From Thermaerobacter sp. FW80 (GTDB taxonomy: Bacteria; Bacillota; Sulfobacillia; Thermaerobacterales; Thermaerobacteraceae), in NCBI RefSeq assembly GCF_004634385.1, contig NZ_CP037895.1:1029245-1093244 (forward strand): a stretch of DNA of 64,000 bases, given 5' to 3'. Of this stretch, positions 13,889 through 21,166 are shown one piece after another; within the stretch, counting starts at the first letter, position 1; each line of letters starts with the position of its first letter. The notes beneath the pieces were generated by a model, which was not told where the DNA came from, did not search any database, and was given only the letters and a program-made list of their open reading frames with translations. Position numbers and translations under genes: made by a program.

Positions 13889-14042
13889 CTACGGCGCGGC
13901 GGCTCGCTGCGGAGGGCGGCCGCCCGCTCCGTGCCCCGGCCCCGGTCCGACGCGCGGCCGGCTCAGGGCCCGGCGGCTCGCCGCCTCGGCCGGGGAGGAA
14001 CCCCCGCGCCGGTTGCGAAGGTTCCACCGAGGTGAGCGCCGG

Positions 14043-15497
14043 GTGAGCGACGTGTCGATCCGCTTCGGGACCGACGGCTGGCGAGCCGTCATCGCGGAGG
14101 ACTTCACCTTTGCCAACGTGCGTCGGGTGGCCTGGGCGCTGGCCGAGCACCTCCAGGCCAGCGGCCGGGCCCGACAGGGCGTCGCCGTCGGCTACGACTG
14201 CCGGTTCCTCTCCGACCGGTTCGCCGCCGCCGTGGCCTCGGTGCTAGCCGCGGCGGACATCCCCGTGATCCTCTCTCCCACGGCCTGCCCGACCCCGGCG
14301 CTGAGCTGGGCGGTGGTCTCGCGGCGCCTGGGGGCGGGCGTGATGATCACCGCCAGCCACAATCCCCCGGAATACAACGGCTTCAAGCTCAAGGGATGGT
14401 TCGGCGGCCCCGCCCTGCCGGAGGAGACGCAGCAGCTGGAGAGCATTCTCGCCCGCCAGGAGGCGGCCCGCCGACCGGGTCAGGAGCCCCCGCGGGGGAT
14501 GGACCTCGACGAGGCCCGCCGCCTCGGCCGCGTCGAAGAGGCCGACCTGATCGGACCCTATGTGGAACAGCTGCGCCGCTTGGTGGACTGGGAGCGGTTG
14601 CGCTCCGCCCGCCTGCGGGTGGTGGTGGACCCGATGCACGGGGCCGCCCGCGGCATCCTGGCGCAGCTGTTGCGGGAGGCCGGCCTCGAGGTCACCGAGA
14701 TCCGCGGCGAGTGGAACCCGGGCTTCGGGGGGCTGGCGCCCGAGCCCATCGCCCGCAACCTGGGACCGGCCATCGAGGCGGTGCAACGCCTTCAAGCCCA
14801 GGCCGTGCTGGTCACCGACGGCGACGGGGACCGCGTGGGGGCGGTGGATGCCACGGGCGAGGTCGTCGACGCCCAGCGGATCTTCGCCCTGCTGCTCCAG
14901 CACCTGGTGGAGGTGCGAGGCTGGCGCGGGGCGGTGATCAAGACCTTCGCCGGCACCCGCATGGTCGACAAGCTGGCTGCTCGCTACGGCCTCCCCTTCC
15001 GCGAGACGCCCATCGGCTTCAAGCACGTCTGCGAGCACGCCCTCAAGGAAGACGTGCTCATCGGCGGCGAGGAGAGCGGCGGCATCGGCATCAAGAACCA
15101 CATGCCGGAGCGGGATGGGTTGCTCTGCAACCTGCTGTTGGCGGAGATCATGGCCACCCGCGGCCGGACCCTGGCCGAACAGGTGCGCGCCCTGATGGCC
15201 GAGATCGGACCGCACCACTTCCAGCGCAGGGACCTGCGCCTGTCGGCGGAGGGGAAGGACCGGCTGCTCCGGCGCCTCGCGGAAGACCCGCCGTCTCGCC
15301 TGGCAGGGTGGCCGGTGGAGCGGGTGGACCCGTTGGACGGCTACAAGTTGATCTTCGGACCCAGCCGCTGGATCCTCTTCCGCGCATCGGGCACCGAGCC
15401 GGTGGTGCGGGTCTACGCCGAGGCGGAGTCGCCGGAGGCCGTGGAAGCCCTGCTGGCCGACGGCCTTCGCTTCGTCGACGCCGTCGCGGGGGCGTGA
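14043..15497 (+). CDS. phosphoglucomutase/phosphomannomutase family enzyme
   Basis: 484-residue alpha-D-phosphohexomutase. The four domains show their motifs in order: catalytic phosphoserine loop TASHNPPEYNG (about residue 105), metal loop DGDGDR (about 260), sugar-binding GGEESGGIG (about 345) and phosphate-binding FRASGTEPVVRVYAEAE near the C-terminus. It interconverts hexose 1- and 6-phosphates; whether glucose, mannose or glucosamine is the substrate cannot be read from the motifs alone. GTG 14043 follows GAGGTGAG. It stands alone between the flagellar genes and a 715-base intergenic region. Confidence 0.92.
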   Translation: MSDVSIRFGTDGWRAVIAEDFTFANVRRVAWALAEHLQASGRARQGVAVGYDCRFLSDRFAAAVASVLAAADIPVILSPTACPTPALSWAVVSRRLGAGVMITASHNPPEYNGFKLKGWFGGPALPEETQQLESILARQEAARRPGQEPPRGMDLDEARRLGRVEEADLIGPYVEQLRRLVDWERLRSARLRVVVDPMHGAARGILAQLLREAGLEVTEIRGEWNPGFGGLAPEPIARNLGPAIEAVQRLQAQAVLVTDGDGDRVGAVDATGEVVDAQRIFALLLQHLVEVRGWRGAVIKTFAGTRMVDKLAARYGLPFRETPIGFKHVCEHALKEDVLIGGEESGGIGIKNHMPERDGLLCNLLLAEIMATRGRTLAEQVRALMAEIGPHHFQRRDLRLSAEGKDRLLRRLAEDPPSRLAGWPVERVDPLDGYKLIFGPSRWILFRASGTEPVVRVYAEAESPEAVEALLADGLRFVDAVAGA

Positions 15498-15889: not shown

Positions 15890-16010
15890 TTATCCCCAAC
15901 CCTATGAACACTGCGAGAGTCCACCACGGGCCGTCATGGCGCAGGAGAAGGCGCGGTTATCAACAGGTCATCCACATTGTCCACATGCCGTGACGGGTAC
16001 ACTATCCACA
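15890..16010 (+). promoter_or_regulatory. cluster of five DnaA-box-like sites
   Basis: Five 9-mers, all in the same orientation and each one mismatch from TTATCCACA: TTATCCCCA (15890), TTATCAACA (15957), TCATCCACA (15968), TTGTCCACA (15977, abutting the previous one) and CTATCCACA (16002). By hand estimate about 0.002 such matches are expected on one strand of 121 bases at this base composition. They lie in a locally AT-richer gap upstream of hpf. No dnaA, dnaN or unwinding element is near, so this looks like a DnaA-titrating or regulatory cluster rather than the origin. Confidence 0.6.
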
Positions 16011-16212
16011 CCGGCGCAGGTCCCTTCCTGCGATCGCTTCCATCCCCTGGACGACGTCGTCGCAGCCGTCGTGGTGCAACGGGCCCTGCGCGGCGAGCCG
16101 GCGCCCGGCCGGCGGGCCGGGAGGCGGCGGCGACCCACGGGCAGGCAACGGTAGGAAGAGACCGATCCCACGCGGAACTCTTCTATACGTTCAGGGGAAG
16201 GAGTGAGGGCCG

Positions 16213-16776
16213 TTGAACATTGCCATCTATGGCAAGAACCTCGACGTCACCGACGCCCTCAAGGAGTACGCCCGCAGGAAGGTCGGCAAGGTGGCCCGGT
16301 ACTTCAACGATACCCCCCTGCAGGCGCAGGTCACCCTGAGCATCGAGCGCGACCGCCACATCGTCGAAGTGACCATCCCTCTCCCCAACAACGGCCTCCT
16401 CATCCGCGCGGAGGAAGACTCCGAGGACATGTACGCCTCCATCGACCTGGTGGTGGACAAACTGGAACGCCAGATCCGCAAGTTGAAGACCCGCCTCAAT
16501 CGCAAGGCCCGTCGGCTGGACGCGACCACGGGCCAAGCCCTGCCCGAATCCGAGACCTCGCTGGACGAACCGGCCCCGGCCGACGCCGAGGAGGAGGGAC
16601 GGGTCGTCCGGACCAAGCGGTTCCCCCTCAAGCCCATGACCGTCGACGAGGCGATCCTGCAGATGGATCTGCTGGGACACGACTTCTTCGTGTTCGCGAA
16701 TGCGGCCACGGGCGATGTCAACGTGGTCTACCGGCGTCGCGACGGGCAGTACGGCCTGATCGAGCCGGAAGCCTAG
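16213..16776 (+). CDS. hpf: long-form ribosome hibernation promoting factor
   Basis: 187-residue long HPF that dimerises 70S ribosomes into 100S. Residues 1-100 are the S30AE domain (MNIAIYGKNLDVTDALKEYA; SIDLVVDKLERQIRKLKTRL); a linker (about 105-130) follows; residues 130-187 are the C-terminal dimerisation domain (KRFPLKPMTVDEAILQMDLL, HDFFVFANA). The start is TTG 16213 after GGGGAAGGAGTGAGG. The linker contains an exact iterated 13-mer (16563), read as LDEPAP. A sigma-H-like GTAGGAAGA (16151) lies upstream but is weak. hpf precedes secA here as in Bacillus, though several kb away. Confidence 0.95.
   Translation: MNIAIYGKNLDVTDALKEYARRKVGKVARYFNDTPLQAQVTLSIERDRHIVEVTIPLPNNGLLIRAEEDSEDMYASIDLVVDKLERQIRKLKTRLNRKARRLDATTGQALPESETSLDEPAPADAEEEGRVVRTKRFPLKPMTVDEAILQMDLLGHDFFVFANAATGDVNVVYRRRDGQYGLIEPEA
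16563..16575 (+). repeat. iterated 13-mer GGACGAACCGGCC
   Basis: Exact copy in the hpf inter-domain linker. Confidence 0.85.
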
Positions 16777-17926: not shown

Positions 17927-18012
17927 GATCCAAGCAGCGTGGCCATGAGCGGAGGCTGCCACCGGGCGATCGAGCGATCGCCGCGGGGCAGATTCGGTGG
18001 AGCGATCTGATC

Positions 18013-18093
18013 ATGGCCCGTGCGATCAAGGTTCTGCTGCTGTTGGCGACCCTGGTTCTGGCGGCTGGGTCGAACTACCAGGTCAGCTTCTGA
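18013..18093 (+). CDS. 26-residue hydrophobic peptide ORF
   Basis: ATG to TGA encodes MARAIKVLLLLATLVLAAGS followed by NYQVSF: a short basic start, one membrane or signal-like helix and a six-residue polar/aromatic end after GS. GGTGGAG lies 10 bases before the ATG. The two operator-like palindromes (17912, 18102) flank it and the HD-GYP gene begins 56 bases later. The design resembles secreted peptides or small membrane proteins; no family was recognised and translation is unproven. Confidence 0.45.
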   Translation: MARAIKVLLLLATLVLAAGSNYQVSF

Positions 18094-18101
18094 CCGCCTC
18101 A

Positions 18102-18116
18102 CCGGTCACAGTAACC
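18102..18116 (+). promoter_or_regulatory. operator-like palindrome, copy 2 (inverted)
   Basis: CCGGTCACAGTAACC, the exact reverse complement of 17912-17926. Together they could be paired operators or a 15-bp long-range stem around the small ORF. It sits 33 bases before the HD-GYP start. Confidence 0.45.
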
Positions 18117-18149
18117 TCCTTTCTTTGCTCGGTGAAGCGAGGTCAGACG

Positions 18150-18623
18150 ATGGTCGTTCCGCAGCTGCGGTGGCGTCCGGGCTATTTCGCATACATCGTC
18201 ATCACGGCCGCCATTGTGGTGGCTCTGGAACGGGCGATCGCGCCTGCGGACCTGTCTGATGTATTGTCCTTTTACTTCTTTGCGGTAGCCGCCGAAGCAT
18301 TCCCCATTCCGGTTCCGCCGCTCAAGGGATCCATATCGCTCGGTTTCGTCGCCATATTTGCTGCGATCTTGTCCGAAGGGCCGTTATGGGGAACGCTGAT
18401 CGCAGCATTGGGCACCATCCGCCCAATCGATTTTGATGGCCGCATTCCACTCCGTGGCATCCTATATAACCGATTCCAGTTGGGCCTATCCGCTTTCATT
18501 GCTGGTCACGTGTACCATGCGCTTGCAAATGGAGCCGACATAACAAGCCGGCAATCCATTGCTGGTTTCCTTCTGGCGGCTCTGGTCTACTTCATTGTAA
18601 ACGTCGGAATGTTTAGCGCATAT
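18150..18623 (+). pseudogene. HD-GYP phosphodiesterase, 5' part (IS-interrupted)
   Basis: ATG 18150 (GCGAGGT seven bases upstream) opens a membrane sensor of four to five helices with FPIPVPPLKGSISLGFVAIF, similar to the sensor of the GGDEF protein at 6748. The frame runs into the inserted element after ...NVGMFSAY and then meets a stop. Joining 18623 to 20252 with one copy of the ATAT duplication restores an unbroken frame into the HD-GYP half at 20252-21166. This 5' part is clearly lower in G+C (roughly half) than its neighbours and than its own 3' half. Confidence 0.85.
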
Positions 18624-20247
18624 GAGCCTGTTTCACGGACACTGACTTGATCGGGACGGGCTGGAAGGTACTGAGCCTATACAGCAACATCGCATGGGTT
18701 GGCGGTCAGCATCGCGTCGGTGAGGGGGCCCCGGTCGCTGCCCTTCTACGCCGGCGCCGCAGCAGTGCAACGAAAGGGTAAGGACGCGGATCTCTCCGTC
18801 ACCCTTCGCCAGAGCTTCAGCAAGTTGTGGGTCAAGCAGAGCAGCTTCCACTCGCTGTCACACGCCGCCAGACCGCGACGCAGGAACCGGTCGGCGCCTC
18901 GCACGGCCTTGATCTGCCCAAACACCGGCTCCACGGTCTGGCTGCGCTTGGCGTAGATCGCCTGCCCTCGCCGGGTCCGCAGCTTGCGTTCCATCCGCTC
19001 CCGCAGGCTCAGCCCCTTGGGGATCCGGCCCCGCGGAGGGGGTGCATCCTTCACCGCCTGACGATGCTTCCACTCCTTGCTCGTCGCCAGGAACAGCTCC
19101 GGCCCTTCGGCCGGCGCCTGCTTCACGTTCGCCTCGCTCCAGTACCCCGCATCGGCCACCACGGCCCGGATGGGCTCGTCCACGCCCGCGGCCCGGAGGT
19201 TGGCTTGCGCCTGCTGGAGCATCGGGTGCAGTTGGCCCACGTCGTTGGCGTCCTGCGTCACCGCCGCGGCCACGATGAGTTGGTCTTCGCTCACCACCGC
19301 CTGGGCGTTGTACCCTTGCACAAAGCCCTGCCGGGTCTTCAGGATCCGGCTGTCCGGATCCGTGATGTTGGCCTTGGCTGCCGGATCCACCGAGGGATCC
19401 GGCGCCTTCGGCTTCCGCCCCCGCCGCTTCTTGCCGGTCGCCTGCTCCTGGGCCTTCCGTTCGTCGATGCGGGCCTGCTGCCGGGCGGCTTCCCGGGCCG
19501 CCTCGTCCTCCAGCCGCCGCTTGCATGCCTTTAGCCGCTCCAGCCGGCTCGCACGGTGGCGCAGCTCCTCCGGCAACTCGTCCCCACGACGCCCGGGGCC
19601 GTACCGCTCATCTTCTTCTCGGTCCGTGGCCTCCGCTTCCCGGAGCATCTTCTCCACTTCCTGGCGAATCGCATCGTAGGTTCGGTTGGCCGCCAGCGAG
19701 GCGTTGGCCTTCATCTTCGTCCCGTCAAGGGCGACCACGCCCACCTTCCCGAGCCCCGCCTCGCGGCACAGCCGCAGCACCTGCGTGAACAGCTCGGCCA
19801 GTTCCCGCGCATGGCGCTGGCGGAAGCGGGCGATGGTCACGTGATCCGGCTTCTGGTTGGCGGTGATCACCCGGAAGGCCACGTCCTCGAGGCACAACCG
19901 CTCGATCCGCCGGCTCGACCGCTCGCCGACGCAGTAGGCGTACAGCAGCAGCGTCACCATCATGGTCGGGTCGTAACTCTCTCCACCCCAGCCGTCGGCG
20001 CGGTACTTCTCGTAAAAGGCCCGCAGGTCCATCTGCTCCACCGCATCGATCAGGAACCAGGCCAGATGGTCCTCAGGCAGCCAGTCGCGAAGGCTCGGTG
20101 GAAGCAGGTACAGTTGGTCACGGTTCACCGGGCGGAAGTTGTAGGCCATAGGGACACCTCGGGCGACGGAGAATTCCAATCCATGGCCTCACTTAAACCC
20201 ACGTGGGTGCAATCCTGCGGAAATACCTGGGTTCGTGAAACAGGCTC
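18624..20247. mobile_element. IS1182-type insertion sequence
   Basis: A 1624-bp element with perfect 14-bp terminal inverted repeats GAGCCTGTTTCACG (18624-18637) and its complement (20234-20247), flanked by a 4-bp target duplication ATAT (18620-18623 and 20248-20251). It holds one intact transposase gene on the minus strand. Preserved ends, duplication and transposase suggest a recent insertion. It interrupts an HD-GYP gene. Confidence 0.92.
18746..20149 (-). CDS. IS1182 family transposase
   Basis: 467-residue DDE transposase. The N-terminal domain has LYLLPPSLRDWLPEDHLAWF; the catalytic part has VVALDGTKMKANASLAANRT (first Asp), NITDPDSRIL and DAGYWSEAN (second Asp), with a coiled, charged insertion around residues 180-260; the end has KRSQTVEPVFGQIKAVRG (Glu region). 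All expected motifs are present, so it should be active. ATG 20149 was chosen because GAGGTG lies five bases before it; an upstream in-frame start would add ten residues. Confidence 0.92.
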   Translation of the reverse strand: MAYNFRPVNRDQLYLLPPSLRDWLPEDHLAWFLIDAVEQMDLRAFYEKYRADGWGGESYDPTMMVTLLLYAYCVGERSSRRIERLCLEDVAFRVITANQKPDHVTIARFRQRHARELAELFTQVLRLCREAGLGKVGVVALDGTKMKANASLAANRTYDAIRQEVEKMLREAEATDREEDERYGPGRRGDELPEELRHRASRLERLKACKRRLEDEAAREAARQQARIDERKAQEQATGKKRRGRKPKAPDPSVDPAAKANITDPDSRILKTRQGFVQGYNAQAVVSEDQLIVAAAVTQDANDVGQLHPMLQQAQANLRAAGVDEPIRAVVADAGYWSEANVKQAPAEGPELFLATSKEWKHRQAVKDAPPPRGRIPKGLSLRERMERKLRTRRGQAIYAKRSQTVEPVFGQIKAVRGADRFLRRGLAACDSEWKLLCLTHNLLKLWRRVTERSASLPFRCTAAAPA

Positions 20248-20251
20248 ATAT

Positions 20252-21166
20252 GTATGTCGATTCAAAGGGGTTCGTCTCGCCGGCGTCGTCCATCATTTGA
20301 AGACCATGGGTATGGTCAACTATGTAGCCCTCATGCCCTTGGCCTACCTCATCTCGGCGATCCATCGCTGGGTCGGCCCCATCGGGATGGTCCTCTTCCT
20401 GCTCCCCCTTGTCGTGGCTCGCTTCTCCTTCAAGCGGTATCTCGACGTGCGTCACATGTTCCTGGGGACGATCCGCGCCCTGGCCCTGGCCCTGGAGGCT
20501 CGGGATCGCTACACGTATGGTCACGCCGATCGGGTGGCGAGGCTTTCGGTCGAGATCGGCAAGGCCCTGAACCTCAGTGACGACGAGCTGGAGCAGCTGG
20601 AGTACGCGGGGATCCTGCACGACATCGGGAAGATCGGCGTCCGGGACGAGATCCTCAACAAACCGGGGCGGTATACGCCGGATGAATACGAGGAGATGAA
20701 GCGGCACCCCGTCATCGGGGCGCGCATCGTCAGCGGCATCGAGTCGCTGGACGTGGTCTCGCTCTGGATCCGGCACCATCACGAGCGCTTCGATGGCACG
20801 GGCTATCCCGACGGACTGCGGGGAGAGGACATCCCCCTGGGTTCGAGGATCCTCGCCGTGGCCGACGCCTTCGACGCGATGCTCTACGACCGGCCGTACA
20901 AGGCCGGGCGGCCGCTGCCCGAGGTGATCGAAGAGCTCAAGCGGTGTTCGGGGACCCATTTCGATCCGCGGATCGTCCGGGTGGTCCTGGACCTGATGTC
21001 CAGTCCCCAGCGGGTGGCGGAGCTGACGCGGCCTCCAGAAGTCCGGTTCGTGGAGCGGCTCGCGTCGCTCTACGGACTGAGGCCCCCCGTCCCGGGCTGG
21101 CGGGAGCGGCCGCTGGTGGTCGAGGAGGTTGCGGGCGCGGAGGAACCGGTGGATCCGCCGGGGTAG
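20252..21166 (+). pseudogene. HD-GYP phosphodiesterase, 3' part (IS-interrupted)
   Basis: Second half of the gene begun at 18150. It carries the end of the sensor (two helices, about 20320-20430) and a complete HD-GYP domain: YTYGHADRVARLSVEIGKAL, HDIGKIG, the HHH-type segment RHHHERFDGTGYPDGLRGED and ADAFDAML. The domain hydrolyses c-di-GMP. Without its start and most of the sensor it is probably silent, although ATG 20308 or transcription out of the element could yield a soluble or short-anchored fragment. Confidence 0.88.

Follow-up and report, generated by a model that had tools for sequence, protein, structure and literature searches.

The window analysed here, 64,000 nt of the genome of Thermaerobacter sp. 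FW80, contains a phosphohexomutase gene (14013..15497, + strand; PF02878/79/80/00408) followed on the same strand by hpf (16213..16776, TTG start; PF02482 + PF16321), the gene for the long-form ribosome hibernation promoting factor. Both assignments, proposed originally in a sequence-only reading of this DNA, were borne out by the Pfam domains; the phosphohexomutase gene is a lineage-specific upstream neighbour. Between the two genes, at 15890-16010, we found all five of the DnaA-box-like sites that this reading had pointed out, all on the + strand, two of them abutting, each one mismatch away from TTATCCACA. Box A (TTATCCCCA, 15890..15898) is the upstream box, located here 67 bp before a conserved core; beside it lies ATGAACA (15904..15910, + strand), a possible degenerate box that is invariant in the alignment of the genus. 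The core starts with box B (TTATCAACA, 15957..15965) and continues with box C (TCATCCACA, 15968..15976), placed 11 bp after B here and 12 bp after it in most other genomes, and with box D (TTGTCCACA, 15977..15985), which abuts C with a 9 bp period. Box E (CTATCCACA, 16002..16010) follows. Comparison with Rfam showed no RNA element close to threshold near the cluster, and a simple scan of the intergenic region found neither a sigma-70 promoter nor a terminator.

A short way downstream of hpf there is a transposase-like ORF of 477 aa (18746-20179, − strand), flanked by an ORF for a MASE9-domain membrane protein (17997-18650) and an ORF with an HD-GYP-like domain at its end (19556-21166). This transposase-like ORF is probably an insertion that has split one signalling gene.

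The window has six box matches vs 1.35 expected, and six were reached in 0 of 100 shuffles. The whole genome (3.04 Mb in three contigs) contains 97 sites with at most one mismatch to TTATCCACA; at this density 0.004 boxes are expected per 121 bp and the probability of finding five or more is 7e-15, or ∼2e-8 when multiplied by the genome length. The five-box cluster is not due to chance. A genome scan for other clusters identified it as the densest of the genome; the second-densest stretch is located upstream of dnaA, where four sites with at most one mismatch (TTATTCACA, CTATCCACA in two copies and TTATCCACA) fall within 311 bp.

Two further arrangements were seen on contig 1 of the same genome. 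At 2483129-2483233 (locus L040, 1130-1234) six DnaA-box-like 9-mers, two with one mismatch and four with two, are located on the same strand with spacings of 22, 21, 22, 20 and 11 bp, adjoining an apparent pyruvoyl-type arginine decarboxylase gene and a HAD-like gene; this array is possibly a second extra-origin cluster. At 925383-925414 (locus L039, 1384-1415) an inverted pair, TTGTCCACA and a perfect TTATCCACA, directly precedes a small HTH-like gene, with a yabQ-like gene upstream and a divIC-like gene downstream.

The sites upstream of hpf proved to be deeply conserved: the cluster is kept in the genus, the class and the phylum. In three congeners the region upstream of hpf has the same five boxes with their order unchanged; the surrounding intergenic DNA has diverged and changed in length. 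Across the four congeneric genomes, 44 of 45 box columns are identical vs 144 of 385 columns in the rest of the intergenic region (Fisher P = 2e-16). Two of the congeners match TTATCCACA perfectly at box D.

For the class, the core upstream of hpf can be written as TTATCAACAG - 12 bp - TTATCCMCA - 9 bp - TTRTCCMCA, often with an upstream box, TATCCCCA, 31-32 bp before it. A scan with this DNA motif only matched the core array in 91 of 154 class genomes, and the reversed pattern used as a control gave 0 matches; the pattern was derived from hpf-upstream sequences of ∼13 class members, so that the linkage to hpf in those members is not independent evidence. The array is present in 24 of 48 class families, counting the window's own, for which the search needs the 11 bp spacing. 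Nearly every genome of the class that carries the array has it in one copy (one genome has two identical matches). With hpf genes located independently of the array scan, 86 of 96 class arrays were on the same contig as hpf. Each of these 86 is upstream of the hpf start, by 125-4011 bp (71 of them by at most 1 kb). Around 83 hpf-type arrays only six minus-strand boxes were found.

In many class members (e.g. loci L011, L013 and L031) the array and hpf are separated by a cold-shock gene of csp type, which is preceded by a sigma-A-like promoter of its own; this gene is absent from that position in the genus of the window. Class genome G141 also carries a separate three-box array, TTATCCACAAGTTATCCACACTATCCACA (contig 194, 23855-23883; locus L045), on another contig than its hpf array.

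When up to two mismatches were allowed, the array was detected in 120 of 299 sampled Bacillota genomes, among them Syntrophomonas, Thermincola, Desulfofundulus, Paenibacillus, Sulfobacillus and Lutispora. Among 146 tabulated phylum arrays, at least 45 are upstream of hpf and at least 51 are at the 3′ end of tsaD; at least 13 genomes have arrays at both places. Six of 20 examined arrays, drawn from the 50 that initially had neither assignment, proved to be adjacent to hpf. Most tsaD-type arrays follow the 3′ end of tsaD at a distance of 16-310 bp, lie on the opposite strand, and share their core with the hpf-type arrays. The near-fixed internal geometry, found at two recurrent addresses across the phylum, says that the sites are under long-term selection.

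Among the papers searched, none links DnaA boxes with hpf (yvyD) or describes a cluster at the hpf address. The new elements are the depth of conservation and the second address at tsaD; the kind of cluster, an extra-origin DnaA-box cluster (DBC), is known. The sequence-only reading had compared the sites both with the Bacillus DBCs and with datA and DARS, and the former likeness holds. In B. subtilis the strong, experimentally mapped DnaA region located downstream of gcp and downstream of ydiF has 10 sites and a Kd of 0.15 uM for ATP-DnaA (PMC4447404). This gcp (tsaD) region matches the tsaD-type arrays by position: it is intergenic, has multiple boxes, and lies away from oriC and past the tsaD 3′ end. 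The cluster of the window occupies the other address, upstream of hpf, a place where none of the strong DnaA regions listed for B. subtilis is found. The DBCs at B. subtilis promoters (sda, ywlC, ywcI/vpr, yydA and trmE) are likewise extra-origin box clusters, some of them 5′ of genes; their genes, however, are described as directly regulated by DnaA, whereas here the linked gene changes by lineage and the array stays.

We consider it reasonably probable, by analogy with B. subtilis, that the array is a conserved extra-origin cluster of the DBC type which sequesters DnaA. The boxes are well above background at the locus, the cluster is situated outside oriC, and the boxes appear to suit the cell's own DnaA. 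DnaA molecules would line up head to tail along the three core boxes B, C and D and along the flanking boxes A and E, and the array would keep a share of the cell's DnaA from oriC; with DnaA held in this way, initiation would be damped or timed, and an effect on a neighbouring promoter, if any, would be secondary. We infer binding, loading, titration and the effect on initiation alike. The cluster would have been inherited from an early ancestor in a position beside hpf or csp-hpf, with a sister cluster at the tsaD 3′ end in other Bacillota. The distance between dnaA and the array, in genomes with large contigs, ranges from ∼124 kb to 1 Mb, and this variability gives no indication of a fixed gene-dosage or timing position. 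Single DnaA-box clusters of B. subtilis have weak effects and seem to be dispensable. Deletion of six clusters in that species caused early initiation, and re-insertion of one brought partial relief (PMC5295017, PMC13220808).

The arrangement that fits sequestration less well is the side on which the array lies, almost always 5′ of csp or hpf and never 3′, which would fit promoter control as well. DnaA on the array could activate or repress csp, hpf or both, tying cold-shock and hibernation genes to the replication state; we regard this as rather unlikely to be the principal role. Its case consists of the 5′ position of every one of the 86 class arrays on an hpf contig and of at least 45 phylum arrays, the joint inversion of array and csp in 17 class arrays of two families (f7 and f41), and the placement of the array in family f7, where 17-20 bp separate its end from the csp −35 element. 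Also, most strong DnaA regions of B. subtilis are found at promoters, and direct regulation by DnaA has been described for eight gene sets (PMC4447404, PMC8203912).

Yet the array is kept when its neighbours are not. The gene that follows it differs by lineage: hpf, csp, an MFS transporter gene, a glutamine-type ABC operon (glnH-like), an oligopeptide ABC gene or uvrA, as named by reading translated ORFs. The MFS gene or the glnHPQ-like genes place csp-hpf 1.5-3 kb away; in the order tatC-array-uvrA, hpf has been replaced while the opposite flank still has tatC, like that of hpf-linked relatives; elsewhere the array follows flgN and has an ABC transporter gene downstream. Moreover, hpf has a candidate promoter of its own, of sigma-H type (GTAGGAAGA-12-GCGGAACTC, 16151..16180, + strand), conserved in the genus with three mismatches from the consensus and located ∼140 bp after box E. 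Similar sigma-H-like promoters with at most one mismatch occur at −60 to −90 of hpf in 12 of 29 class loci, with 0.01 expected in shuffles, which suggests an early origin for the control of hibernation by sigma-H that B. subtilis is known to have. Transcription of hpf in B. subtilis is accounted for by sigma-H and sigma-B (PMC12421865). Since the array persists after csp, hpf or both have been separated or lost, and since hpf has its own sigma-H-like promoter, control of hpf, which the sequence-only reading had put forward, is not supported as the main function.

The proximity of the array to promoters differs accordingly among lineages: it is near the csp −35 in one family, ∼140 bp from the candidate hpf promoter in the window, and separated from csp-hpf by genes in others. 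The distance from the array to the csp −35 varies between 17 and 209 bp, whereas the internal 12/9 bp spacing hardly varies; this difference speaks for a function that resides in the array itself. Helical phasing between the array and the csp promoter seemed present at first (R 0.50), a value that came from close relatives; when these were collapsed the phasing was not significant (P ∼0.2), and we rejected it. Promoter control of csp is possible in the family where the array ends ∼18 bp before the −35. Taken together, these observations suggest that the array is an ancient regulatory site whose probable role is to keep DnaA from the origin, not to switch hpf on or off.

Titration requires less strict geometry than is observed here: the internal spacings of 12 and 9 bp are nearly invariant over the phylum, and the array is essentially single copy per class genome. 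Both features would suit a functional counterpart of datA, acting through ATP hydrolysis, or of DARS, acting through nucleotide exchange, in which the rigid abutting arrangement outweighs the number of DnaA molecules held. The E. coli datA site likewise has about five boxes in a non-origin intergenic region, but it promotes IHF-dependent hydrolysis of DnaA-ATP, and the cluster of the window has another gene context and same-strand abutting boxes. DARS1 and DARS2 of E. coli are likewise short DnaA-box modules outside oriC. Their cores contain oppositely oriented DnaA boxes. In the window all five boxes are on the + strand, which does not agree with the DARS core orientation, and the membership in the datA/DARS class considered in the sequence-only reading was not upheld. 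B. subtilis, furthermore, has no known Hda, IHF or DARS machinery (PMC13220808). A counterpart of datA or DARS in this strict sense seems improbable to us, and sequestration remains the reading we prefer.

Sequestration presumes that DnaA is the protein that reads the repeats. GGRDHTTV, the canonical recognition motif, is retained in the DnaA of this genome, and box variants found upstream of dnaA recur in the cluster upstream of hpf; for these two reasons the canonical box should apply to the host, and no conflict is apparent between the sites and the consensus expected for the species' own DnaA. Given that DnaA binding to the array in this class is deduced from such matches, another regulator recognising TTATCCACA-like repeats could be imagined in its place. 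We think this very improbable in view of the agreement of the repeats with the DnaA-box consensus, their recurrence as the same variants upstream of the cell's own dnaA, the canonical recognition motif, and the presence of the array's core next to tsaD as well, a place bound tightly by DnaA in B. subtilis.

That the cluster is a second or former replication origin, as same-strand boxes clustered in an intergenic region might suggest, is the least credible reading of all and was rejected: dnaA (855 kb) and the cluster (1045 kb) are 190 kb apart on contig 1, the GC skew, computed from 20 sampled 20-kb stretches, stays below zero as far as 854 kb and is above zero from 857.5 kb to beyond the cluster, thus changing sign at dnaA, no AT-rich unwinding stretch adjoins the boxes (AT content ∼0.4, with values of 0.12-0.46 around the cluster), and 0 of the classified arrays adjoin dnaA. 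The array is independent of the origin.

The unusually fixed geometry of the array leaves room, beyond sequestration, for a more specific function in DnaA activity. As a tentative and rather unlikely extension, the rigid 12/9 bp array found across Bacillota, ancestrally fixed at csp-hpf and at the tsaD 3′ end, might work as a specific nucleoprotein device for adjusting DnaA activity; it would then be the counterpart of datA and DARS that has been missing from Gram-positive bacteria. To our knowledge, DnaA-box clusters have been described in detail only from B. subtilis. The array bears on the question of how initiation of replication is kept in check in Gram-positive bacteria in the absence of the E. 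coli systems, and it names two exact loci, hpf and tsaD, that are present in culturable species, the tsaD locus being common to B. subtilis.
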